Below are positions 2,810 to 49,887 of a DNA stretch of 49,887 nucleotides, in pieces. The notes under the pieces are model-generated. The model was not told the origin of the DNA, ran no database searches, and saw nothing but the letters and a program-made list of their open reading frames with translations. Source of the DNA: Elusimicrobiota bacterium. Its GTDB lineage: Bacteria; Elusimicrobiota; Elusimicrobia; UBA1565; UBA9628. The stretch lies in the NCBI GenBank assembly GCA_016234805.1, contig JACRNU010000059.1, positions 1-49,887 of the forward strand, written 5' to 3'. The stretch's first letter is position 1, and each line of letters begins with the position of its first letter. The position numbers were made by a program, and so were the translations under genes.

Positions 2810-5259
2810 CAGACGAGCCCTCCCCCGCCGGCCGCTGGGGCCCGGGCGCCGGAGGCCTCCCCCTTGACGAGTCCCGCGGCCAGGTGGAGCGACGGGACCA
2901 GCACCAGGTCGAGCTTGCCCCCGATGAACATCGAGCCCGAGACCCGGCGCTCGAAGACGCCCTTCCCGTAGAGGTCCGCGACCACGTTGTAGCCTTTCGT
3001 GGATCCGCCCGCGGATTGGGTCAGGGCCTCGGCCGCCCTCCCGCGGTCGTCGAGCGTCACGCGGTCCTCCTCGAGCCACGCCCTGGGGCTGGCGGCCGCG
3101 AAAGCCAGCAGTGCCGCGTCCGCGGCCCCGGTCACGCCCACCACGGCGGCCTCGCCCGCGTCCACGACGCCGTCGTTGTCCGCGTCGGAGAAGAAGTGGG
3201 TGTCCCCCGTGTTGTCCAGACAGGCGGCATCGACGCCCTGGCAGCCCGCGCCCGGGAGGGCCACGGTCGCCGTGCCGTTGAGGCGGCTGACCTTGTCGTG
3301 AAACACGTTGGCCGCCGCGCAGTTCCCGTACCGGCAGCCCGCGCCCGCCTCGGTGTCCTCCGCGAAGTCGAGGATGCCGTTGCCGTTGGTGTCCCGGAAA
3401 TTGACGAACCACTTCCTCTCCAGGAAGCGGCTCCGGGAGGCGTCCGGCGCGGTGAAGCCCACGACCTCGGCCTTTCCCGTGGCGTTGCCCGAGCCGTCCG
3501 CGGGGTTCAGGGACAAGAACGAGTATTCGTAGTAGGTGGCCAGAACCGTCCCGGGCACGGCCACGTCCCGGACGCGGACCTCGATGGGCTGGAGGCGGGC
3601 GAACATCCCGGAGACCAGGGTCCCGGCGGTCGTCCCGTTGTCCGCCGGCCGGAACGTCGGATCCGTATAGACGCGCTGGATGCCCTCCGAGGCGCCGTTG
3701 ACGAACTCGTAGGCGTTGCCGAAAAGCGTCTGGTACGCGGGCTTGACCGCCGGCGCGTCGTAGCGGCCCGCGGCCGGATCGTAGACCGGCCCCGGCACCA
3801 GGGTGACCGCCAGGGCGTCGCCATCCACGCCCACCCTCGTCACCGTGTCCACGGAGTTCGACTGCGTCCAGAGATACTTGACCGCCCAGTAGGCTGGCTT
3901 GGCCGCGGAGGGGCTGTAGAAGAGGTCTCCGGCCGCATCGAGCTCCGTCGGCAGGACCATGTTCGCCTCGACCTGCAGGGTGCCGTAATCGAGCCGGCCT
4001 TCGCGGCTGTTGAGCGTGATGACCTTGAACGACTTCGGGTCGGGACGGGTGAGGTATTCCTCGACCCGGACCCTGCCCCCTGTCGCGTCCACGAGCACAT
4101 GGCCCTCCTGGTACTGGGAGGCCCTGACCTCGAAGACGGAAGCGGACTCGAGCGCGTCCCGCGACAGGGACCGGTGCACCTCGCGCTCCGCTTCGGCCCT
4201 GAAATCCCCGGCAAGTGCGGCCCGCTGGCGGGGCCCATCCGAGACGGCCGCCTTAGGAGCCGCGCCGACCTCCTCTCCCCCGCCCGGGGTCTCAACCGGC
4301 TCCTCCCGTTCGGCCTCAGGGGCCTCCTCGGGCGGAGCCGTGAACGCGGGCCCGAAGAGCTCGACCGGCCCCATCCGGCCGCCAGAAACCTCGACGCTCT
4401 CCCTGGCCTTGAGCTTCTTCTTAGCGCCGACCGCGTACACCAGGACCTCTCCCGCCTCCACCGAAACCTTCACGCGGCGATCGCTGGTGGCCGACACCGA
4501 GAACTTCTCGTCCGCCTTGGCGACCACGGCCGCGCCCGGAGCCCGCACCTCGAACTTGCGCCGCGCGCGCCACGAGACCTTGGCCGAGACCTTGCCCTGG
4601 AAGAGGCCGACCGCGATATGGTCGAACTTGTCCTTCTCGATGGAGAGGATGGAGAACGGCGACATCTCGACCTTGGACCCTTCGTGGAACTCCGCCGTGA
4701 CTCCGGCGTCCGCGTAGGTCTGCAGCCGGTCGCCGCGCTTGAACTCCTCTCCTCCGCCGGACACCTCCCGCCAATCCTTCCGGCCCGCGGACAGGATCTC
4801 GACGAATCCCTTGACCGCCGTGAGCCTGGCGGTCTCATCAGGCTCCTCCGGGGCCGGCTTCTTCGCGATCGCCGGAGTCGCGGCCGGCCCGAAAGGGTTC
4901 TCCACCGGGGTCTCGGGCCCCGGAGCCGCGGGCTCGGGCGGCTTAGCCGCGGCCTTCTTGCCGGCGCGCATGGCAGGCTTGCGCCTGGCTTTCTTCGCCT
5001 TCACGGGCTTGGACCCAGGAGGCTCCGCGAAGGACTCGGCTTCAGGCGCCGTCTCTTCCGGCGCCGGGGCCACTGCCGCCGGGGACGCAGGCTTGCGCTT
5101 TCCCGACTTGCGCTTAGACTTGACCGCCTCGCTCGTGATGACCGGCGCGGCCCCTGGTTCGGTTTCAACGGCCGCGTCCGCGCCATGAACGCCGGGCGCG
5201 GGCAGGATCAGTCCGCCGGCGACGCCGAGAAGCAGAGCAAGAAGAACGCGCCTGGCCAT
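2806..5259 (-). CDS. Large exported FecR-domain protein with calcium-binding-like repeats
   Basis: The 817-residue product has a signal peptide (MARRVLLALLLGVAGGLILPAPG). A Lys/Pro/Ala-rich linker runs over about 35-135. A FecR-type domain at about 140-280 includes VKGFVEI, GDRLQTYADAGVTAEF and FQGKVSAKV. The long C-terminal part carries two EF-hand/dockerin-like loops, DTNGNGILDF (about 622) and DADNDGVVDAGE (about 690). FecR domains outside iron signalling are common in secreted repeat or adhesin-like proteins. There is no transmembrane anti-sigma part and no adjacent sigma factor, so an iron-sensing role is not supported. It overlaps the downstream barrel gene by 4 nt. A 29-bp repeat fragment lies in the signal-peptide region (5178-5206). 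Confidence 0.75.
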   Translation of the reverse strand: MARRVLLALLLGVAGGLILPAPGVHGADAAVETEPGAAPVITSEAVKSKRKSGKRKPASPAAVAPAPEETAPEAESFAEPPGSKPVKAKKARRKPAMRAGKKAAAKPPEPAAPGPETPVENPFGPAATPAIAKKPAPEEPDETARLTAVKGFVEILSAGRKDWREVSGGGEEFKRGDRLQTYADAGVTAEFHEGSKVEMSPFSILSIEKDKFDHIAVGLFQGKVSAKVSWRARRKFEVRAPGAAVVAKADEKFSVSATSDRRVKVSVEAGEVLVYAVGAKKKLKARESVEVSGGRMGPVELFGPAFTAPPEEAPEAEREEPVETPGGGEEVGAAPKAAVSDGPRQRAALAGDFRAEAEREVHRSLSRDALESASVFEVRASQYQEGHVLVDATGGRVRVEEYLTRPDPKSFKVITLNSREGRLDYGTLQVEANMVLPTELDAAGDLFYSPSAAKPAYWAVKYLWTQSNSVDTVTRVGVDGDALAVTLVPGPVYDPAAGRYDAPAVKPAYQTLFGNAYEFVNGASEGIQRVYTDPTFRPADNGTTAGTLVSGMFARLQPIEVRVRDVAVPGTVLATYYEYSFLSLNPADGSGNATGKAEVVGFTAPDASRSRFLERKWFVNFRDTNGNGILDFAEDTEAGAGCRYGNCAAANVFHDKVSRLNGTATVALPGAGCQGVDAACLDNTGDTHFFSDADNDGVVDAGEAAVVGVTGAADAALLAFAAASPRAWLEEDRVTLDDRGRAAEALTQSAGGSTKGYNVVADLYGKGVFERRVSGSMFIGGKLDLVLVPSLHLAAGLVKGEASGARAPAAGGGGLVW
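5178..5206 (-). repeat. Dispersed GC-rich repeat, short copy D
   Basis: 29 bp differing from 8312-8340 (copy A) at one position. It falls in the signal peptide of the FecR-domain protein and is read in the same sense as copies B and C (APGV-x-GA). It may be a fragment, or chance similarity in GC-rich code. Confidence 0.45.
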
Positions 5260-20035: not shown

Positions 20036-20496
20036 TGCTGCTTGAACAATTTCCTGAAACCGAGGCCTTCCATAGGCTTCATCTCATTATCACCTGAAGC
20101 CTTTATCAGGACCCATACCCTCGAACCTTGGCGAACCACGAGCGCAACGTACTGCAATTCATTGGGATTGAGCAACAGGGTCGCTGTCCCGACCCGGCCT
20201 TCGCTGGGCTGGACGACCCGCGAGACAAGGACATTCTGCAGAATAGTGGCGACTTGCTTGGCGCGCTTGAAATCCACCAACAGATCGATCCTGTCGCCTG
20301 GAGAGAGCGCCACGAGCTGTGATGGGTCCAGGGGAAGATTGTAGGCCCGATAGCCGGGAGGCACGGACCTGGACAACCGCTTCTCTGGGTCGAGCCCCGC
20401 CGCATTGTTCTGACCAGGATGCTGCCCGCATCCCGCAAACCCCGCTGACAGGACCAGTAGGGCTGTGAAGAGTTTCTGTCTGGGGTCCATGCGCAT
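20032..20496 (-). CDS. CpaB/RcpC-like lipoprotein (first of tandem pair)
   Basis: 154 residues from the ATG at 20496. A hydrophobic N-terminus ends in GFAGCGQ, a lipobox-like site. The domain shows PPGYRAYNLPLDPSQLVALSPGDRIDLLVDF and TILQNVLVSRV, as in RcpC/CpaB. The C-terminus GLGFRKLFKQQ parallels RASFRKLFPAQ in the downstream copy, showing recent duplication. Its Shine-Dalgarno GGGGGAG lies in a 9-bp hairpin (20501-20522). Starts at 20490 or 20511 are possible. Confidence 0.7.
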   Translation of the reverse strand: MRMDPRQKLFTALLVLSAGFAGCGQHPGQNNAAGLDPEKRLSRSVPPGYRAYNLPLDPSQLVALSPGDRIDLLVDFKRAKQVATILQNVLVSRVVQPSEGRVGTATLLLNPNELQYVALVVRQGSRVWVLIKASGDNEMKPMEGLGFRKLFKQQ

Positions 20497-20500
20497 GCCA

Positions 20501-20522
20501 GGCTCCCCCAAAGGGGGGAGCC
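20501..20522 (-). promoter_or_regulatory. Hairpin covering the ribosome binding site of the cpaB-like gene
   Basis: GGCTCCCCC (20501-20509) pairs with GGGGGAGCC (20514-20522), leaving a 4-nt loop. On the minus-strand RNA the Shine-Dalgarno of the lipoprotein gene (start 20496) is inside the stem. It could limit translation, or simply end transcription in either direction. Confidence 0.5.
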
Positions 20523-20551
20523 TGGGAAAATGTTATCATACGCACGTCAGC

Positions 20552-21808
20552 ATGAGAACAGGATTCGTCCTGCTGTTTCTTTGCGCAAGCTCCCTGGCAC
20601 GACTCGCGTCCGCCCAGCCCGAGGGCGCGCTGTCCCAGCCGGCCCGTCCGCCGGCCTCGGCCGGCGGGGAGTCTTTCTCGCTCGATTCCTACATCCAGAC
20701 CGCCCTGGACAAATCTCCCGAGGTGCGCCAGGCCCGGGAGTCCCACCAGGCCGCGTCCCTCCAGTGGAAGTCCCAGGTGGCAGCCTCGGTCCTGCCGACC
20801 CTCTCCTTCACGCTCCAAGGGCCTCCCTACGGCCACAGCACGCTCAACGGCTACCGGGAGCAGAACCGCCTGAGCCGGGATTCCGCCGGCGCCGGCCTGA
20901 ACTCCATCGAGGGGACCAAGGCCTTCGAGGCGCTCCGGGCCTTCTACGACCTCAACCTCAAGATGAGCCTGCAGGAAGTCACCGATCAGAACCTCTCGGC
21001 GCAGGCTGAGCAATACCGGCTCACCGAGGAGCTCTACCGCAACGGCATGAAGAGCCTCTCGGACCTTCTCAAATCGGAGACGGATTGGCGCTCGGCGGAG
21101 CTGAGGCTCGCTTCGGCCGATGCCGAGACCAAGACGGCCCTCATGCGCTTCAACGTCTTCATCGACAGGACCCCCATGGCGTCGGCGTCTTTGACCGCGG
21201 CGCTCGCGCCGGGCGCGACCGCCCTGCCCGAACTGTCGTCGGACCTGGCCAGGGCCCTGACCCGGAACCCGGACGTGGTCAAGGCGCGCTTCGACCTCGA
21301 CCGCTCCAAGACGGCCATGGACCAGGCCTTCCAGGGAATGACCCCGATCTTCGCCGTGAACGCGACCTTGAACCGCTCGGACCTGGGGCCGGGCAGGCCG
21401 ACGAACCCCAACCCCTACTACCAGATGGGGCTCTCGCTCTCCGCGCCGTTCAACTTCAATTTCGCGTCGCAGTATTTCAGCTACCGCGCCGCGGCCGCGG
21501 AGAAGAAGAGGAGCGCGGCGGCTCTGGCCGCAACGGAGAGGGCGGTCAGCACCGACCTCCACACGGCCTTCATCAGCCTCGAGCGCGCCTACAAGACCCA
21601 CCGCATCTCCATGCAGAAGGAGGAGATCGCGTCCCGCAACCTGGGCATCGTCAACACGCGATATAAGGAAGGCTCGGCCGACGTCATCACCCTGGCCCAG
21701 GCGCAGCTAGACTACCTCTCCGCCCGCGTGGAGCGGGCCCAGGCCCTCAACGACGCCTTCATCAACCGCGCCCTCTACAAGCTCGCGCTGGGAGACAATC
21801 CATGGTAA
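20552..21808 (+). CDS. TolC-family outer-membrane efflux protein
   Basis: 418 residues with a signal peptide (MRTGFVLLFLCASSLARLASA). Two long Ala/Gln/Glu-rich coiled-coil repeats occupy the mature protein (first near 45-220, second near 230-415). They include the family motifs SYIQTALDKSPEVRQAR, YRNGMKSLSDLLKSETD and RYKEGSADVITLAQAQLDYL. Three copies would form the outer-membrane channel and periplasmic tunnel. Its stop overlaps the membrane fusion protein gene by 7 nt. It leads a five-gene exporter operon. The substrate is not deducible. Confidence 0.9.
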   Translation: MRTGFVLLFLCASSLARLASAQPEGALSQPARPPASAGGESFSLDSYIQTALDKSPEVRQARESHQAASLQWKSQVAASVLPTLSFTLQGPPYGHSTLNGYREQNRLSRDSAGAGLNSIEGTKAFEALRAFYDLNLKMSLQEVTDQNLSAQAEQYRLTEELYRNGMKSLSDLLKSETDWRSAELRLASADAETKTALMRFNVFIDRTPMASASLTAALAPGATALPELSSDLARALTRNPDVVKARFDLDRSKTAMDQAFQGMTPIFAVNATLNRSDLGPGRPTNPNPYYQMGLSLSAPFNFNFASQYFSYRAAAAEKKRSAAALAATERAVSTDLHTAFISLERAYKTHRISMQKEEIASRNLGIVNTRYKEGSADVITLAQAQLDYLSARVERAQALNDAFINRALYKLALGDNPW

Positions 21809-28082: not shown

Positions 28083-28259
28083 GTGAAGAAGACCCAGAAG
28101 GAAGAAAAGAAAGACGGGTTCGATCTCAAATCAGCGGGCAAGACCGGGTTGGTGGCCGCGATCGCGGTCCTGGCGGGCGTGGCCATCGCCAAGGCCCTCA
28201 AGAAGCGCTCGGACAAGAACACCGTGAGCAAGCTCGTCGGCAAGCTCAAAGCCCTCTAG
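28083..28259 (+). CDS. Small single-pass membrane protein (58 residues)
   Basis: GTG start with AGGAGG 6 nt upstream. The product begins MKKTQKEEKKDGFDLK, then one hydrophobic helix (about 21-37: GLVAAIAVLAGVAIA), then a Lys-rich tail (KALKKRSDKN) to a TAG at 28259. It has its own promoter-like site and terminator, so it looks like a complete small gene. Very basic ends around one helix suggest an inner-membrane peptide. Function unknown. Confidence 0.65.
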   Translation: MKKTQKEEKKDGFDLKSAGKTGLVAAIAVLAGVAIAKALKKRSDKNTVSKLVGKLKAL

Positions 28260-28267
28260 TCCGCTTC

Positions 28268-28309
28268 GGCGCATGGCGGGATGCTGCCCCCGCCATGCGC
28301 CGCCGTTTT
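28268..28309 (+). terminator. Terminator of the small membrane protein gene
   Basis: Perfect 13-bp stem (28268-28280 with 28289-28301) and an 8-nt loop, followed by GCCGTTTT. It begins 9 bp after the stop codon. Confidence 0.7.
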
Positions 28310-28418
28310 CTCCGCCGTCAACCTGCCGTCGGAACCATCTCCGACCTGGCGGTGTCACATAGCCATGAAGGGTCACCGCGAAGCTCCTCCCCAGGGAGCG
28401 CGCTTTAGGGGGAACGTC

Positions 28419-30752
28419 ATGAACCGTCTCCACACCAGCCTTGCCGTCGTCGTCCTCGTCCTGTCCGCGGCCGTCCCGGCCCACAGCCAAAGGCTCATCG
28501 CCTGGCCCATCGGACGGCCCGCGCCGATCTTCCTGCCCCCCATGCCGAGACCCATGCCGCCTATCCCCAGGCCGGACATGATCCCCCTGCCCCTCAAGGA
28601 GCAGAAGGTCGAGGGCTCCGTGAAGATGCAGGTCGCCCAGCTCTGGATCGAGACGGTCTTCCGCAACGACAGCTCGGCCCGGCTCGAAGGCGAGATCCTC
28701 ATGCCCATCCCGGGCGACGCGGTCATCGACAAGATGGAGATGAAGGTCGGGGACAAGCTCATGAAGGCCGAGCTCTTGAACGCCGATCAGGCCCGCACCA
28801 CCTATGAGAACATCGTCCGCCAGATGCGCGACCCGGCTCTCCTCGAGCTCCAGGGCGAGCGCCTCGTGCGGGCGCGGGTCTATCCCATCGAGCCCAACTC
28901 GACCGTGACCCTGCGCTTCAACTACACCCAGATCCTTCCCAAGGCAGGCGCGCTCTACTCGCTCAAGCTCCCCCTGGCCCGCATCGACGGCACGGGCGGC
29001 GGCAGGTCCGTCAAGGTGGGCTTTGAGTCCCAGGCTCCGATGCGTCTGCTCTACTCCCCCACCCACTCCGTGGACATCGACCGGCAGGGCGACAAGAAGG
29101 CCACCGTGGGCTACAAGACCGGCGGCGCGGAGAGCGAGCTCGTGGTCCTCTACTCGCTCGACGAGGGCAAGATGTCCTCCTCGCTCTTGACCCACCGCGA
29201 GGCCGGCGAGGAGGGCTTTTTCATGCTCAGCCTCTCTCCCACGGTCAAGACCGACGCCAAGGGCCAGCCCAAGGACGTCGTGTTCGTCCTCGACCGCTCC
29301 GGCAGCATGGAGGACGACGGCAAGATGGAGCAGGCCCGCAAGGCCATGAAATCCACCATCAACCGCCTGACCGCGGACGACCGCTTCGGCATCGTGGACT
29401 TCGCGACCGGAGTCGAGTCCATGAGCGAGTCCCTCATCGCGGCGGACGAGGCCGGCAAGAACCGCGGCCGCCGCTACGCGGACAAGATCGAGGCCTCGGG
29501 CGGCACCAACATCAAGGAGGCCATGGACACGGCGCTGGACCTTCTCGCCAAAGCCGGCGCCGCGGCCGGCCGGATGCCCATGCTCGTCTTCCTGACCGAC
29601 GGCCTCCCGACGGTGGGCGAGACCAACACCGACGAATTGCTCCGGGCCGTGCACGGCCGCAACAAGTCGGTTCACGCGCGCTTCTTCTGCCTCGGGGCCG
29701 GCAAGGACGTGAACTCCCTCTTCATCGACAAGCTCGCTCAGGGACAGCGCGGCAGCCGCGACTACGTCCTCCCAGGCGAGGACATCGAGGTCAAGGTCGG
29801 CCAGATGGTGGACCGCATCGCCAAGCCCGCCATCACGGACGTCTCCTTCGAGTGGAACGGAGTCTCGGCCGGCCAGGTCTACCCCAAGGACATCCACGAC
29901 ATCTACCACGGCGACCCCGTGGTCCTCATGGGCCGCTACTCCAAGGAAGGCAAGGGCACGCTCGTGCTCACCGGCAAGACCGCCGGCGGCAGCGTCCGCC
30001 AGGAGTTCCCCCTGGCCCTGCCCAAGGAGCACACCGAGGACGACTACCTGCCCCGGCTCTGGGCCCACCGCAAGGTCGCCCACCTCCTCGACGAGATCCG
30101 GCTCACCGGCTCCAAGAACCCCGAGATCGTCGACGAGGTCATGAAGCTCGCCAAACGCTACGGCATCGTGACGCCCTACACCTCGCTCCTCATCGCCGAA
30201 GACTCGGACATGGCGCAGCTCCGCCAGCGCGGCAGGGTCGTCTTCGACCGGATGGAGGCCGACGCCGGCGGCATGCCCGTTCCCGCCCTCTCCGGTTCGG
30301 CCGGGCCCGAATCCACGCGCAGGGACCGCTTCGCCCTCGACGCGGTGCGCGGCCAGGCCTTCAGCCGCAACCTTATGGCCATGAAGTCCGCGGCCATGGC
30401 CCCGGCCCCGGCCGAATCCCTCGGCCTCATTGCATCCGGGTCCGCGTCCGGCGGCATGGGCGCCATCGACTACGAGGTCAGCGGCGACGCCGGAAGCGGG
30501 GAAGCCAAGCTCAAGAAGCTCGCCACCGAGATGCGCTCCGCGGGCTCCAAGACCTTCTACAAGCGCGGCGACGAGTGGGTCGACGGCGCCTACGAGCTCG
30601 ACAGGAAGCCCGCGGTCACGGAGATCGCGTTCCTGAGCGACGCCTACTTCGAGCTCCTTCGCAAGCACCCGGAGGCCAAGTCGTGGCTGTCCATCGGCCC
30701 CAAGGTGACCTTCGTCATGGGAGGCAAGGCCTACAGGATCGTCGACAAGTAA
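28419..30752 (+). CDS. Exported VIT and VWA domain protein
   Basis: 777 residues with a signal peptide (MNRLHTSLAVVVLVLSAAVPAHS) and a Pro-rich linker. A VIT (inter-alpha-trypsin) domain spans about 58-190 (LWIETVFRNDSSARLEGEI and MKAELLNADQART). A VWA domain at about 285-465 carries the MIDAS motif DRSGSMED and the Thr/Asp segments (GGTNIKEAMD, FLTDGLPTVG). The C-terminal part (about 640-777) is unassigned. Such proteins bind metal and protein partners outside the cytoplasm. GGGGGAAC precedes the ATG at 28419; an earlier frame is rejected because it runs into the terminator. A terminator follows. Confidence 0.88.
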   Translation: MNRLHTSLAVVVLVLSAAVPAHSQRLIAWPIGRPAPIFLPPMPRPMPPIPRPDMIPLPLKEQKVEGSVKMQVAQLWIETVFRNDSSARLEGEILMPIPGDAVIDKMEMKVGDKLMKAELLNADQARTTYENIVRQMRDPALLELQGERLVRARVYPIEPNSTVTLRFNYTQILPKAGALYSLKLPLARIDGTGGGRSVKVGFESQAPMRLLYSPTHSVDIDRQGDKKATVGYKTGGAESELVVLYSLDEGKMSSSLLTHREAGEEGFFMLSLSPTVKTDAKGQPKDVVFVLDRSGSMEDDGKMEQARKAMKSTINRLTADDRFGIVDFATGVESMSESLIAADEAGKNRGRRYADKIEASGGTNIKEAMDTALDLLAKAGAAAGRMPMLVFLTDGLPTVGETNTDELLRAVHGRNKSVHARFFCLGAGKDVNSLFIDKLAQGQRGSRDYVLPGEDIEVKVGQMVDRIAKPAITDVSFEWNGVSAGQVYPKDIHDIYHGDPVVLMGRYSKEGKGTLVLTGKTAGGSVRQEFPLALPKEHTEDDYLPRLWAHRKVAHLLDEIRLTGSKNPEIVDEVMKLAKRYGIVTPYTSLLIAEDSDMAQLRQRGRVVFDRMEADAGGMPVPALSGSAGPESTRRDRFALDAVRGQAFSRNLMAMKSAAMAPAPAESLGLIASGSASGGMGAIDYEVSGDAGSGEAKLKKLATEMRSAGSKTFYKRGDEWVDGAYELDRKPAVTEIAFLSDAYFELLRKHPEAKSWLSIGPKVTFVMGGKAYRIVDK

Positions 30753-30775
30753 GGCGCGCAATCCTCCGAACAGAG

Positions 30776-30809
30776 ACCCCGGCGGGGAATCCCGCCGGGG
30801 TTTCTGTTT
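30776..30809 (+). terminator. Terminator after the VIT-VWA gene
   Basis: Perfect 11-bp stem ACCCCGGCGGG (30776-30786) with its complement at 30791-30801, a GAAT loop, then TTCTGTTT. It lies 23 bp past the stop. Confidence 0.8.
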
Positions 30810-30833
30810 CCAGCAATTGGTATCATTGTCGCC

Positions 30834-31970
30834 ATGCCGGAACGCATCCTCATCATGGGCGGGAGCTTCGACCCTCCCCACAAGGGCCACAAGGCTCTGC
30901 TCCTTGGCGCGGCAAACACCCTCAAGCCCGAGCAGGTCCTGCTCATCCCCGCGTTCCAGGCGCCGCTCAAGGGCATCCCTGGGGCTCCCGCTGGCCAACG
31001 GGTCGAAATGCTCCGGGCCATGGTCTCCGTACTTCCCAAAGGACTGAGGAAGCTCTGCTCCGTCAGCCTCTCCGAGGTCCGCAGCAAGCGCAAGGTGTAC
31101 ACGGTCGAGACCCTCAGGGGCCTGAAGCGAAGGTTCCCCAAGGATGAGCTCCACTTCGTCGTGGGCTCGGACTCCGCGGAGTCGTTCCACTTGTGGCGCG
31201 ACCCCGAAGCCCTCAAGCGCCTGAGTTCGTGGTGGGTCGGCCCCAGACCTGGTTCGGGAACACGTCTTCCGTCCCGCTTCCACAAGCTCCCGGGAAGGTT
31301 CCCGGACATCTCGTCTACGGACATCCGGCTGGCCATCGCCACAGGAGGCAGGTGGAAGAAGCTCGTGCCCAAGCCCGTGGCGGCCCTCATCCGCCGAAAG
31401 CGGCTCTACGGCCTCGCCCTCCTTCGGACGCTCGAGGACACGCTCAAGGACTCGCGCTTCCATCACACCCTGGCCGTGGCGGACATCGCGGTCCGGCTCG
31501 CGGAAAGGCACGGCCTCGACCGCCAGAAGGCGGCTTTGGCCGGCCTGCTCCACGACTGCGCCAAGTGCATGAGCCCGGAGGAGATGGTCTCCCGGGCCCG
31601 CGCCTGGAGGATCAAGGCTCCCCGTCTGGCCGACATCATCCGCCGCCAGCCCAAGCTCCTCCACTCCTACCTCAGCGCGGAAATGGCCCGCCGACGCTTC
31701 GGGATATCGGACCTCGAAGTGTTGAGCGCGGTGCGCAAGCACACCCTCGGAGCCCTCTCCATGTCCCCTCTCGACAAGCTGATCTATGTCGCGGACTCGG
31801 TGTCCGAGGACCGCGGCCACCCGCTGGTCCGCGGCCTGCGCACCATCGCCTTCAGGGACCTCGACGAGGCGCTGACAGCGTGTCTCGAGTCCAAGGTCTC
31901 GTTCGCCCGGTCCAGGAAGTCCTGGCTGCACCCGGTCTCTCTTTCTTTATGGAAAAAAATTCGAGCTTGA
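30834..31970 (+). CDS. nadD: Fusion of nicotinate-nucleotide adenylyltransferase (NadD) and YqeK HD phosphatase
   Basis: 378 residues. Residues 1-185 are NadD: MGGSFDPPHKGH nucleotidyl-transferase motif and ISSTDIR near 165. Residues about 195-375 are a YqeK-type HD domain: FHHTLAVADIAVRLAERHG, AGLLHDCAK, and later LIYVADSVSEDR. NadD makes deamido-NAD; YqeK hydrolyses Ap4A. Fusion of the two is known in several phyla. A -10 (TATCAT) ends 7 nt before the ATG, so the transcript may be nearly leaderless. The 3' end overlaps the next gene by 22 nt. Confidence 0.92.
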   Translation: MPERILIMGGSFDPPHKGHKALLLGAANTLKPEQVLLIPAFQAPLKGIPGAPAGQRVEMLRAMVSVLPKGLRKLCSVSLSEVRSKRKVYTVETLRGLKRRFPKDELHFVVGSDSAESFHLWRDPEALKRLSSWWVGPRPGSGTRLPSRFHKLPGRFPDISSTDIRLAIATGGRWKKLVPKPVAALIRRKRLYGLALLRTLEDTLKDSRFHHTLAVADIAVRLAERHGLDRQKAALAGLLHDCAKCMSPEEMVSRARAWRIKAPRLADIIRRQPKLLHSYLSAEMARRRFGISDLEVLSAVRKHTLGALSMSPLDKLIYVADSVSEDRGHPLVRGLRTIAFRDLDEALTACLESKVSFARSRKSWLHPVSLSLWKKIRA

Positions 31971-45732: not shown

Positions 45733-47151
45733 GTGAAAGAAGGCATCACCTTCAGCGACGTCCTGCTCGTTCCCAAGCGCTCCACGGTCTCCTCGCGCAA
45801 GAACGTGGACATCTCAGGCCGCTTCTCCCGCGGCATCAATCTCAAGTGCCCCATCGTCTCGGCCAACATGGACACCGTGACCGAAGCCGAGATGGCCATC
45901 GCCATGGCCCAGGCCGGGGGGCTGGGCATCATCCACCGCTTCCTCACCATCGAGGAGGAGGCGGCCCAGGTCGCCAAGGTCAAGCGCACGGAGAACGTCA
46001 TCATCGAGGAACCCTACACCGTCTCCCCACGCGACACCATCGCCTCGGCCCGGGACCTCATGCGGCGCAAGGAGGTGGGCGGCCTGCTCGTGGTGGCGGA
46101 GGGCCGCAAGCTCGTGGGCGTGCTCTCCGAGCGCGACATCCAGTTCCACGAGGACGGCTCCGCCCAGGTCAAGAGCGTGATGTCCTCCAAGCTCGTCACG
46201 GCGCGGCCCGGCATCACCCTCGACCAGGCGCAGAAAGTCCTTGCCGAGCACAAGATCGAGAAGCTCCCGGTGGTCGACGCCAACGGCATCCTCAGGGGGC
46301 TCATCACGGCCAAGGACATCAAGAAGAAGAAGCTCCACCCGGACGCGTCCCAGGATGCCAAGGGCAGGCTCCTCGTGGGCGCCGCGGTCGGCGTGGTCGG
46401 AGATTTCATGGACCGCTGCGCGGCGCTCCTTTCCGCCGGGGCCGACGTCCTGGTGCTCGACGTGGCGCACGGCCACACCGATCATGTCATCGAAGCCGTG
46501 GAGAAGATCAAGAAGCGCTGGTCCTCGGCTGAGCTCGTGGCCGGCAACGTGGCCACCTTCGAGGGCGGCCGGGACCTCATCGAGGCCGGCGCCGACGGGG
46601 TCAAGGTCGGCGTGGGTCCGGGCTCGATCTGCTCGACCCGCATCGTCTCAGGCGCGGGCGTGCCCCAGCTCACGGCCGTCATGGACTGCGCCAAGGCCGC
46701 GGCCAAGCGCGGCGTGCCGGTCATCGCGGACGGCGGCGTGCGCGACCCCGGGGACATCACCAAGGCCATGGCGGCCGGCGCCTCATCCGTCATGGTGGGC
46801 AGCCTCCTGGCCGGCACGGACGAGAGCCCGGGCCTCATGGTGGTCCGGGGCGGCATGAAGTACAAGCTCTACCGCGGCATGGCTTCTTTGACCGCGACCC
46901 TCTCCCGCCGCATCACCGAGACCGGGGTGACCCGCCGCATCGAAGACGAAGAAGCAGCAGAGGTCGTGGCCGAGGGCGTGGAATCCATGGTGCCTTTCCG
47001 CGGCCGCGCGAGCGAAGTGGTCCACCAGCTCGCCGGAGGTCTGCGCTCGGGCATGAGCTACTGCGGGGCCAGGACCATCGCCGAGCTCTGGAGCAAGGCC
47101 GAGTTCATCCGCATCACCCCGGCTGCCTGGGCTGAGTCCCTGCCCAAATGA
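45733..47151 (+). CDS. guaB: Inosine-5'-monophosphate dehydrogenase
   Basis: 472 residues from a GTG. The TIM-barrel catalytic region is interrupted by two CBS domains (about 90-205). The catalytic Cys loop is [13 protein letters not shown] (about 298), with NAD/IMP motifs [11 protein letters not shown] and a flap at the C-terminus ([25 protein letters not shown]). It makes XMP for GMP synthesis. It is divergent from hemB, and guaA is not adjacent. Confidence 0.95.
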
Positions 47152-47155
47152 AACG

Positions 47156-47215
47156 GGTGCCTGGCATTGTATTTTGCATTTTCTCATGAAAATGCAAAAT
47201 ACAATGCCAGGCACC
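47156..47215. repeat. Perfect palindrome with 28-bp arms and 4-nt loop
   Basis: The arms 47156-47183 and 47188-47215 are fully complementary; the loop is TCAT. They begin GGTGCCTGGCATTG, a motif I have seen at the ends of repetitive or MITE-like sequences in other bacteria (from memory). The sequence is more AT-rich than its flanks. It begins 5 bp after guaB and covers every plausible start codon of the pduS-like gene. No T-run follows. Confidence 0.9.
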
Positions 47216-48520
47216 ATCCGCAAGGCCGGCGTGGTCGGCGCCGGAGGAGCGGGCTTCCCCACGCACGTCAAAGCCCTTGCCAAGGCTGAGATCGTGATCT
47301 CCAATGGCGCCGAGTGCGAGCCCCTCCTGCATAAGGACAAGGAGCTCATGAAGCGCCACGCCCCACTCCTGGTCGAGGGCCTGGAAACCATGATGGCCGC
47401 GACTGGAGCGAAAAAAGGCGTGCTCGCGGTCAAAGCCAAGTACAGGGACGTGGTCGCTGCTTGCGAGAAAGCCATCCAGGGCAGGCCAAGCCTCTCGGTC
47501 TTTCAGCTCGGTGACTTCTACCCGGCAGGCGACGAATACACCCTGGTCTACGAGGTCACGGGCAAGCTCATCCCACCAGCGGGCCTGCCCCTCCAGGTCG
47601 GAGCAGTGGTGGACAATGTCGAGACCCTCATCAACGTCGCTCTTGCCAAGAAACAGCCCGTGACGGACACCTATCTCACCGTGACCGGAGCGGTCCACAA
47701 GCCTGTCACTCTCAAGCTCCCGATCGGGACCTCCGTAGCCGAAGCCATCGGATTCGCCGGCGGAGCCAAGGTCTCCCTGTTCGGGGTGCTCGAGAGCGCC
47801 ATGATGGGCAGGGTCATGGACCCTGCCGAGCCCGTGACCAAGACCACGGGCGGGCTCATCATCCTCCCCGTTGACCACAGCCTCCTGCGCAAGAAGACCG
47901 CCTCAGCCCAGCGCATCAGCCGCATCGGCAAGTCCGCCTGCGACCAGTGCTCTTTCTGCACCGAATTCTGCCCGCGCTACCTCCTGGGCTACGCCATCGA
48001 GCCCCACAAGGTCATGCGCAGCCTCGGCTTTTCCGACAGCAACCGCAAACCCTTGAGCGAGTGGGCCCTGCTCTGCTGCGAATGCTCCTTGTGCTCCCTC
48101 TACGCCTGCCCTGAGGACCTCGACCCTAAGAACGTGTGCGTCGGAGCCAAAGCCTCCTTGCGGGAGCAAGGCATGGACTGGAAAAAATCCTCCCTGGCAG
48201 GAGGAAAGGCTCCCTCTGTCCATCCCATGCTGCCCTTCCGCAAGGTGCCCATAGACAGGCTCACCCGCAAGCTCGGGCTCTGGGACTACCGGGCTGAAGC
48301 GCCCCTGGATGAGACTGCCCGTCATGTGAAATCCGTAGCCATCCCCTTAAAGCAAGGCCTGGGCGTCCCTGCCCAAGCCTGCGTGGCCGCGGGACAAAAA
48401 GTAGCCAAAGGGGACCTCATCGCCAGCGTACCGGAAGGCAAGCTCGGCGCAGCAGTCCACGCCAGCATCGACGGCACGGTCAAATCCGTGGATTCCCGAG
48501 TCCTGATCGAGGCCCCATGA
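47186..48520 (+). CDS. pduS: PduS-like cobalamin reductase / RnfC-like Fe-S flavoprotein
   Basis: 444 residues from the ATG at 47186; ATGs at 47192 and 47204 are also in frame, and all lie in the palindrome. Near the start, GVVGAGGAGFPTHVKA is the PduS/RnfC FMN/NADH motif. Two 4Fe-4S sites follow: CDQCSFCTEFCP (about 251) and CCECSLCSLYACP (about 295). A final soluble lipoyl/SLBB-like part has QACVAAGQKVAKGDLIAS. In Pdu microcompartments PduS reduces cobalamin and contacts PduT. No other rnf gene is present. It overlaps pduT by 4 nt. Confidence 0.85.
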   Translation: MKMQNTMPGTIRKAGVVGAGGAGFPTHVKALAKAEIVISNGAECEPLLHKDKELMKRHAPLLVEGLETMMAATGAKKGVLAVKAKYRDVVAACEKAIQGRPSLSVFQLGDFYPAGDEYTLVYEVTGKLIPPAGLPLQVGAVVDNVETLINVALAKKQPVTDTYLTVTGAVHKPVTLKLPIGTSVAEAIGFAGGAKVSLFGVLESAMMGRVMDPAEPVTKTTGGLIILPVDHSLLRKKTASAQRISRIGKSACDQCSFCTEFCPRYLLGYAIEPHKVMRSLGFSDSNRKPLSEWALLCCECSLCSLYACPEDLDPKNVCVGAKASLREQGMDWKKSSLAGGKAPSVHPMLPFRKVPIDRLTRKLGLWDYRAEAPLDETARHVKSVAIPLKQGLGVPAQACVAAGQKVAKGDLIASVPEGKLGAAVHASIDGTVKSVDSRVLIEAP

Positions 48521-49077
48521 CCAAATCCGAGTTCCAGTCCGTCGGCGGAGTCGAGACCAGCTCCATGGCCAAGGGATTCGCCGTGACCGACACCATGCTC
48601 AAGGCAGCGGATGTAAAACTCCTGGTCAGCCGCACCATCTGTCCCGGCAAGTTCATCGTGCTCGTGGCCGGCCAGGTCGCGGACGTCAACGCCTCGGTGG
48701 CTGCCGGAGCCTCGGCTGCCGCGGAATCCCTGGTGGACCAGTTCAGCATCCCCAACATCGACCCGGACATCTTCCCGGCCATCGAAGGCACGACCCAGGT
48801 CTCCGAGCTCGAAGCCCTGGGCATCATCGAGACCTTCTCCGTGGCCTCCCTCATCGAAGCCGCGGACGCCGCGGCCAAGGCCGCCAGCATCAGGCTCATC
48901 GAGATCAAGCTCGCCATGGCCATGGGCGGCAAGGGCCTCGTGACCTTCACCGGCAGCGTGGCCGCCGTCGAGACCGCGGCCTCGGCCGCTGCCGAGAACG
49001 CCGGGGCCAAGGGACTGCTCGGCCAGAAGGTCGTCATCCCCAAGCCCCGGCCCGAGCTCCTGCGGGAATTAATCTAG
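48517..49077 (+). CDS. pduT: PduT-like tandem BMC-domain shell protein
   Basis: 186 residues with two BMC domains (about 8-85 and 100-180). Each opens with the family strand (GGVETSSMAKGFAVTDTMLKAADV; LGIIETFSVASLIEAADAAAKAA). LLVSRTICPGKF carries the Cys (about 42) that in PduT trimers holds a 4Fe-4S cluster at the central pore. It overlaps pduS (ATGA), pointing to an electron path across a shell. Its stop overlaps the convergent peptidase gene (CTAG). Confidence 0.88.
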   Translation: MTKSEFQSVGGVETSSMAKGFAVTDTMLKAADVKLLVSRTICPGKFIVLVAGQVADVNASVAAGASAAAESLVDQFSIPNIDPDIFPAIEGTTQVSELEALGIIETFSVASLIEAADAAAKAASIRLIEIKLAMAMGGKGLVTFTGSVAAVETAASAAAENAGAKGLLGQKVVIPKPRPELLRELI

Positions 49078-49887
49078 CGCCGGGACGCCAGCGCCCGGAC
49101 GGCCTGAAGAGCGCCCTCGGTCGCGAGCGCCATCCTGCGGTAGTCCAGCGTCTCCGGCGTGTCGGTGGGCTTGTGGTAGTTCTTGTTGCGGAAGAAGGCC
49201 GTGTCCGTGATCATGACCGCCTGATAGCCCTGATCCCAGAACGAGGCGTGGTCCGAATAATCGATGCCCTGGACGAAGGGCGGGGCCGTGATGGAATACA
49301 CCGGCAGGCCGAAGCCTCGCATGGCTGCCTTGATCGGCCTCGCCAGGGACCGGGATGACTGGTCCGTGACGATCCCGATGAAATTCGCCTGGTCGGGATA
49401 GAACAGGTCGAAGACGATTGAGGGCGTTCCCTGGCTGTCCGGCTCGTCCGAGTAGAAGCCGAGCATCTCGAGGGAGATCATCGCGCGGACCCGCACCCCT
49501 GCTTTTTTGAGCGCAGCGGCGTGCTGGGCGCTGCCCATGAAAGAGGTCCCGAACAGGGGAGGTTCCTCCATAGTATAGGCCGCCAGGTCCACGCGCATGG
49601 CGAGCGGCTCCGCCTTGAGGAGACGGGTGAGCTCGAGCAGAACGGCCACGCCGCTGGCGTTGTCGTCGGCCGCGGGGAAGGGCCCGAAGGCGTCGTAATG
49701 CGCGCCCACGACCACGCGTTCCTCGGAGTCGGGCCCGAAGGTCGCTATCACGTTGCGGAAAGGTCCCTTCATGACCTTCTTGTTGCGCTGGTCCCACCAG
49801 GGGACGCGATAGGCCTGCTCGGAGACCGCGCCGCCCGAAGCCTCGAACTCACCCTTGATGTAGTCCGCGACTCGGTCCAGGATCTCC
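49074..49887 (-). CDS. M28-family zinc peptidase, N-terminus cut by window edge
   Basis: At least 270 residues; the frame is open to the edge with no forced start. Metal and catalytic residues are visible: His in VVGAHYDAFG, Asp in AADDNASGVAVLLELTRLL, Glu pair in TMEEPP, Asp in GIDYSDHASFWDQG, and His in NYHKPTDT. M28 enzymes are aminopeptidases or glutaminyl cyclase-like and are often exported; a signal peptide would lie outside the window. Confidence 0.85.
   Translation of the reverse strand, partial: EILDRVADYIKGEFEASGGAVSEQAYRVPWWDQRNKKVMKGPFRNVIATFGPDSEERVVVGAHYDAFGPFPAADDNASGVAVLLELTRLLKAEPLAMRVDLAAYTMEEPPLFGTSFMGSAQHAAALKKAGVRVRAMISLEMLGFYSDEPDSQGTPSIVFDLFYPDQANFIGIVTDQSSRSLARPIKAAMRGFGLPVYSITAPPFVQGIDYSDHASFWDQGYQAVMITDTAFFRNKNYHKPTDTPETLDYRRMALATEGALQAVRALASRR

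Follow-up and report, generated by a model that had tools for sequence, protein, structure and literature searches.

What does a pduS–pduT gene pair serve when no other microcompartment gene lies beside it? This question is raised by the window studied here, which is the entire contig C42 (49,887 bp) of a draft Elusimicrobiota MAG (3.42 Mb, 128 contigs, 92% complete). The pduS-like gene (47186..48520, + strand), assigned by profile domains and Cys motifs, starts with ATG and encodes 444 aa; an alternative in-frame TTG start lies at 47174. The pduT-like gene (48517..49077, + strand) encodes a tandem BMC protein (BMC-T) of 186 aa with two BMC domains (8e-41). The stop of pduS and the start of pduT overlap by 4 nt (ATGA), and the pair is only about 0.8 kb from the contig end. 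It is flanked by guaB (IMP dehydrogenase, 45733..47151, + strand) and by an M28 peptidase gene (49074..49887, − strand) that is cut by the contig end. Family HMMs for BMC-H, BMC-P, PduL, AldDH, DeoC and RpiB identified none of these in any window ORF; the BMC-H models matched the PduT ORF only, and the genome-wide BMC-P matches were all on one other contig. An earlier note on this DNA had described a PduS-like reductase gene overlapping that of a PduT-like shell protein with the cluster Cys, neighboured by guaB and a peptidase and with no other microcompartment gene in the window, and this description holds in full. guaB adjoins pduST in the same genus alone, and beyond a genus no neighbour of the pair is conserved; on these grounds the idea that guaB or the peptidase is functionally tied to the pair was rejected. 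Elsewhere in the window, two long ORFs on the − strand (28131-31931, 1266 aa, and 20159-21601, 480 aa) had no Pfam match.

PduS is defined by a set of four Pfam domains: Complex1_51K, SLBB, a Fer4 dicluster and RnfC_N (PMC6325248). The set is complete in the window ORF, where Complex1_51K (6e-45), SLBB, Fer4_17 and RnfC_N were found. The NADH/FMN domain carries a GAGGAG motif, and the protein has an RnfC-type barrel domain. Two [4Fe-4S] motifs, C256xxC259xxC262xxxC266 and C301xxC304xxC307xxxxC312 (numbered from the TTG at 47174), have the same spacings as those of Citrobacter freundii PduS (PMC2982820), and their Cys residues are kept in 21/21 relatives. By family, as judged from these domains and motifs, the window protein is a PduS-type reductase with FMN and two [4Fe-4S] clusters, and NADH-dependent activity is predicted for it.

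The PduT-like protein aligned over nearly its full length with the solved structures 3nwg (1.6e-49), 3pac (2.4e-45) and 3n79 (4.9e-43). Its pore residue Cys42 (TICPGKF) aligns to the cluster Cys of the solved PduT 3pac, and chain 3n79 has a Ser at this position. The pore Cys that marks the PduT family, in the context C-P-G-K-Y/F, is therefore present as Cys42, and it is invariant in 91/91 PduT. The full-length match to TIGR02526 (eut_PduT) reached 116.5 bits against a cut-off of 250.3 bits, which places the protein in a distant subfamily; both PduS and PduT score under the NCBIfam equivalog cut-offs. By sequence comparison, the likeness of the two proteins to PduS and PduT is far above chance level.

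The genome was searched with BMC-domain and BMC-P profiles, which revealed one further region, at about 142-151 kb of contig C84. The genes of this region begin with a 5'-nucleotidase, a HAD phosphatase, triosephosphate isomerase (TIM), PduL, BMC-H and BMC-P, continue with an aldehyde dehydrogenase (AldDH), BMC-T, RpiB and a C14 caspase-like peptidase, and end with two BMC-P, DeoC, a small protein, BMC-H and another small protein. Two BMC-H, three BMC-P and one BMC-T genes were counted. SPU metabolosomes are defined by DeoC and RpiB with AldDH, PduL and TIM, and deoxyribose-phosphate or DNA catabolism has been proposed as their function (PMC4207490; PMC8217296). At C84, a DeoC-type aldolase (PF01791), which passed the curated deoC cut-off, and an RpiB-type isomerase (PF02502) occur together with BMC-H and BMC-P. 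The compartment type is SPU, not Eut and probably not Pdu. The genome gave no match to EutB (PF06751) of the EutBC ammonia lyase, and a Eut-type compartment was rejected because this match was missing while the control genomes, E. coli included, gave one. The B12 diol dehydratase (PF02286) had no match in the genome, as in the control genomes, and a Pdu-type compartment is unlikely here. pduS is absent from the C84 locus; in a genome-wide search the window copy was the sole full-length PduS. The C84 BMC-T reads IARGK where PduT reads ICPGK and thus has no cluster-ligand Cys. A full set of BMC-H, BMC-P and signature enzymes is therefore encoded elsewhere in the genome, and the earlier note's suggestion that the pair is a satellite of such a compartment agrees with this locus, which has neither pduS nor a Cys-bearing BMC-T. 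The note had named a full Pdu- or Eut-type locus elsewhere, lacking its own pduST, as the finding that would refute its reading of a pair with no other microcompartment gene; a locus of this sort did turn up, of the SPU type, and it refutes that reading.

The co-occurrence of PduS and BMC genes was analysed in 77 related Elusimicrobiota genomes, with full-length PduS counted at >50% identity; the relatives were placed in Elusimicrobia/Elusimicrobiota by a scan of named genomes. Full-length PduS was present in 21/77 genomes, all of them BMC-bearing (21/54), and in 0/23 BMC-less genomes (Fisher p 1.7e-4, uncorrected for kinship). SPU loci without PduS were common (33/54 BMC-bearing relatives). 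Six BMC domains (from two BMC-H and two tandem proteins) were counted in 19 genomes, and every one of these has PduS. Genomes with four domains lack it, the fragmented assembly G041 excepted; the assembly G029, where three domains were counted, is fragmented too. The 21 main loci that were fetched share one SPU gene order, and the satellites consist of the pduS–pduT pair alone. Cys42 was found in 21/21 satellite PduT and in 0/21 main-locus BMC-T. The pair and the main locus lie on different contigs in 21/21 PduS-bearing relatives. Some relatives have contigs long enough to place the two far apart, such as G047, in which each lies well inside its own contig of about 135 kb; in the source MAG, given the contig ends, the separation could be as small as about 9 kb. 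The earlier note had asked whether the pair is conserved alone in relatives. It does stand alone at its own locus in all 21, but in each of them shell genes are present on another contig.

The pair is not detached everywhere in the class. At eight loci in other Elusimicrobia, it heads the SPU operon in the order pduS–pduT–TIM–pduL–BMC-H and onwards, as far as the contig permits. Class-wide (families f12 and f15 and others), a distance of 2.3-11 kb separates the pair from BMC-H in 35 genomes, and in 11 the two are on separate contigs. Four further assemblies with the pair gave no BMC-H match in the search, probably due to contig breaks. In the PduS tree, satellite and operon-linked PduS grouped in a single clade apart from those of other phyla (SH-aLRT 95), which indicates that by descent the window pair is part of the SPU module. 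In the best tree, operon-linked PduS was nested inside satellite PduS. The AU test did not reject the satellites as a single clade (p 0.43), and either attachment or detachment may have come first.

Based on the identity of the genes, their conserved Fe-S ligands, the SPU locus without its own pduS, the co-occurrence with BMC genes, the steady separation in relatives and the shared PduS clade, we firmly believe that the pair forms a satellite operon of two genes, very probably the redox module of the SPU-type metabolosome encoded on a different contig of this genome. In published descriptions (PMC4207490; PMC8217296), a BMC satellite locus encodes a shell protein, in some cases together with an enzyme, at a distance from a main locus that carries BMC-H and BMC-P, and the window has this layout, with no BMC-P or BMC-H, a distal position and a main locus elsewhere. 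The detached redox module itself belongs to an already known kind. The satellites detailed in these papers differ from it, being shell-only, EUT modules or aldolase/AldDh. PduS and PduT go unmentioned in the main text of PMC8217296, whose supplements may list this satellite. Satellite module and redox role taken together, we consider the following explanation likely.

In this scheme, PduT trimers would be part of the shell, their pore holding a [4Fe-4S] cluster, and PduS would dock on PduT from inside. DeoC would cleave deoxyribose-5-phosphate to yield acetaldehyde, and the luminal acylating AldDH would make NADH. PduS may then oxidise this NADH, and the PduT cluster would receive the electrons by way of the FMN and the two clusters of PduS. 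From there they would reach a cytosolic acceptor, so that luminal NAD+ could be regenerated without an encapsulated alcohol dehydrogenase. By analogy, we lean slightly towards this electron-export step. C. freundii PduS is an NADH-dependent protein whose cofactors are FMN and two [4Fe-4S] clusters, and its N-terminus mediates binding to PduT (PMC2982820), and the PduT cluster, with a potential of +99 mV, is suited to NADH-derived electrons (PMC6325248). The conserved genes of the main locus include no recognisable alcohol dehydrogenase, which fits NAD+ regeneration by PduS. Against this role, the 33/54 BMC-bearing relatives without the pair indicate that the module is not needed for NAD+ recycling generally and is a conditional addition. 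A similar lumen–cytosol path has been proposed for GRM loci (Ferlez 2019, PMC6325248), where pduS is nearly always beside pduT and no B12 enzyme is present; there the two genes lie inside the loci, and the signature enzyme is another one. The role of PduS and PduT outside B12-dependent compartments is a stated question in the literature (PMC6325248, PMC4207490). One bacterial class offers a natural comparison, in which the same SPU compartment occurs with or without the pair, linked or unlinked, and this makes the electron-export idea testable.

Electrons might also move inward, with PduST reducing a luminal acceptor, for example an aldehyde to an alcohol. Axen et al. suggest that, in SPU loci lacking an alcohol dehydrogenase, PduS might reduce the aldehyde to alcohol (PMC4207490). 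Against this, a cluster at +99 mV is better placed to take NADH-derived electrons (PMC6325248), and we regard the inward direction as unlikely. The SPU loci with in-operon PduS in Atribacteria and the SPU-like loci of Latescibacteria (PMC4207490) share DeoC, RpiB, AldDH, PduL, TIM and PduS with the present system, together with the absence of an alcohol dehydrogenase. They differ in their linkage, since in the order of the window genome the pair is detached in every PduS-bearing genome examined.

It is rather improbable that PduS acts mainly as a corrin (B12) reductase for a B12 enzyme. In the Pdu system PduS does reduce cobalamin (PMC2982820), and a PF01923 cobalamin adenosyltransferase is present in this genome, but this family is widespread in bacteria. 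EutB had no match here although the controls matched; the missing diol dehydratase match weighs less, as the controls gave none either. No B12 enzyme was recognised among the SPU locus genes, and DeoC does not need cobalamin (PMC4207490). The pair resembles that of the Citrobacter and Salmonella Pdu systems in the four PduS domains, the two tetra-Cys motifs, the tandem BMC protein with a pore Cys and the adjacency of the genes. It differs from them in having neither a diol dehydratase match (none in the controls either) nor a recognised B12 enzyme in the compartment, in scoring under the NCBIfam equivalogs, and in being encoded away from the main locus.

The pair could instead be a relic or an idle duplicate left by a rearrangement, no longer expressed with the compartment and with its start occluded by a palindromic repeat. 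An inverted repeat (47156..47215) with perfect 28-bp arms and a 4-nt loop indeed covers the pduS start region in the source genome, with a predicted hairpin of -50.4 kcal/mol. The main-locus AldDH gene is also interrupted. It occurs as two ORFs (L011:4579-5984; C84 at about 144.6-146.0 kb) because about 45 nt appear to have been lost together with a frameshift, whereas 20/20 relatives have the gene in one frame; this may be a real mutation, with the pathway broken here, or a wrong assembly. However, both frames of the pair are intact, all Fe-S ligands are kept, and PduS and PduT are 75% and 86% identical to the same-genus copy, whose pduS has no such repeat. We therefore hold a relic to be very unlikely, and the repeat is probably not part of the PduS/PduT system. 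The palindrome GGTGCCTGGCATTGTATTTTGCATTTTC spans the pduS start; a related one occurs at the guaB start of a same-genus genome (L117, around 1468-1520), and another in the source genome between clpP and the neighbouring gene (L076, around 5104-5160). These look like a small palindromic repeat family landing near gene starts.

The earlier note's other proposal, a stand-alone Fe-S shell-type protein with its reductase acting outside any compartment, might draw on the lack of BMC genes beside the pair and on the recurrence of isolated pairs in many phyla, but it is extremely improbable and was rejected by the genome-wide searches and the co-occurrence data, as the genome itself holds a full BMC locus, the pair is missing from all BMC-less relatives, all 35 other-phyla genomes with isolated pduST have BMC-P elsewhere, and, apart from the four assemblies without a BMC-H match, probably due to contig breaks, no examined genome with the pair is demonstrably without BMC shell genes.

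Many pduST pairs without a flanking BMC gene were found in Ignavibacteriota, Bacteroidota, Acidobacteriota, Verrucomicrobiota and others. An SPU association had been expected, but in the fetched regions DeoC or RpiB was beside the best BMC-P in 0/35. AldDH was beside it in 7/35 regions, six of them also with PduL. Across the regions as a whole, bare BMC-P clusters predominated, and these look like the FRAG or BMC-P-triplet types as given in the 2021 catalogue (PMC8217296); compartment typing in these phyla rests on narrow HMMs and is tentative. The data indicate that detached pduST is common and accompanies several compartment types, and the general interest of the pair lies in how widespread this arrangement is. 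PduS–PduT may, somewhat speculatively, be a portable two-gene redox plug-in for microcompartments generally, often kept off the main locus in many phyla. If true, it pairs with differing compartments (SPU here; fragmented-shell, BMC-P-triplet or AldDH/PduL elsewhere), and cross-shell electron exchange can be acquired or lost, and perhaps controlled, independently of the compartment. Annotation contig by contig can miss half a compartment.

Several further features of the SPU loci were observed. The C14 caspase-domain peptidase, which is lipoprotein-like, lies between RpiB and BMC-P in the SPU operon (L011:7006-8424). At least four related genomes have copies akin to it in their SPU loci, and two of these genomes have one copy on each side of RpiB. 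In most relatives from the family and order, the genes of the 5'-nucleotidase and the HAD/AphA-like phosphatase (L011:5-2281) directly precede the SPU operon, and nucleotides as the feed would fit this arrangement. Families f14 and f9 have two RpiB-type genes in tandem in their SPU loci (L107, L108). Two same-genus genomes carry an 8-10 kb insertion between AldDH and BMC-T (L103:5778-13341 and the matching stretch of L114), which in L103 encodes a large, apparently secreted protein of 1181 aa as well as proteins resembling tail fibres.
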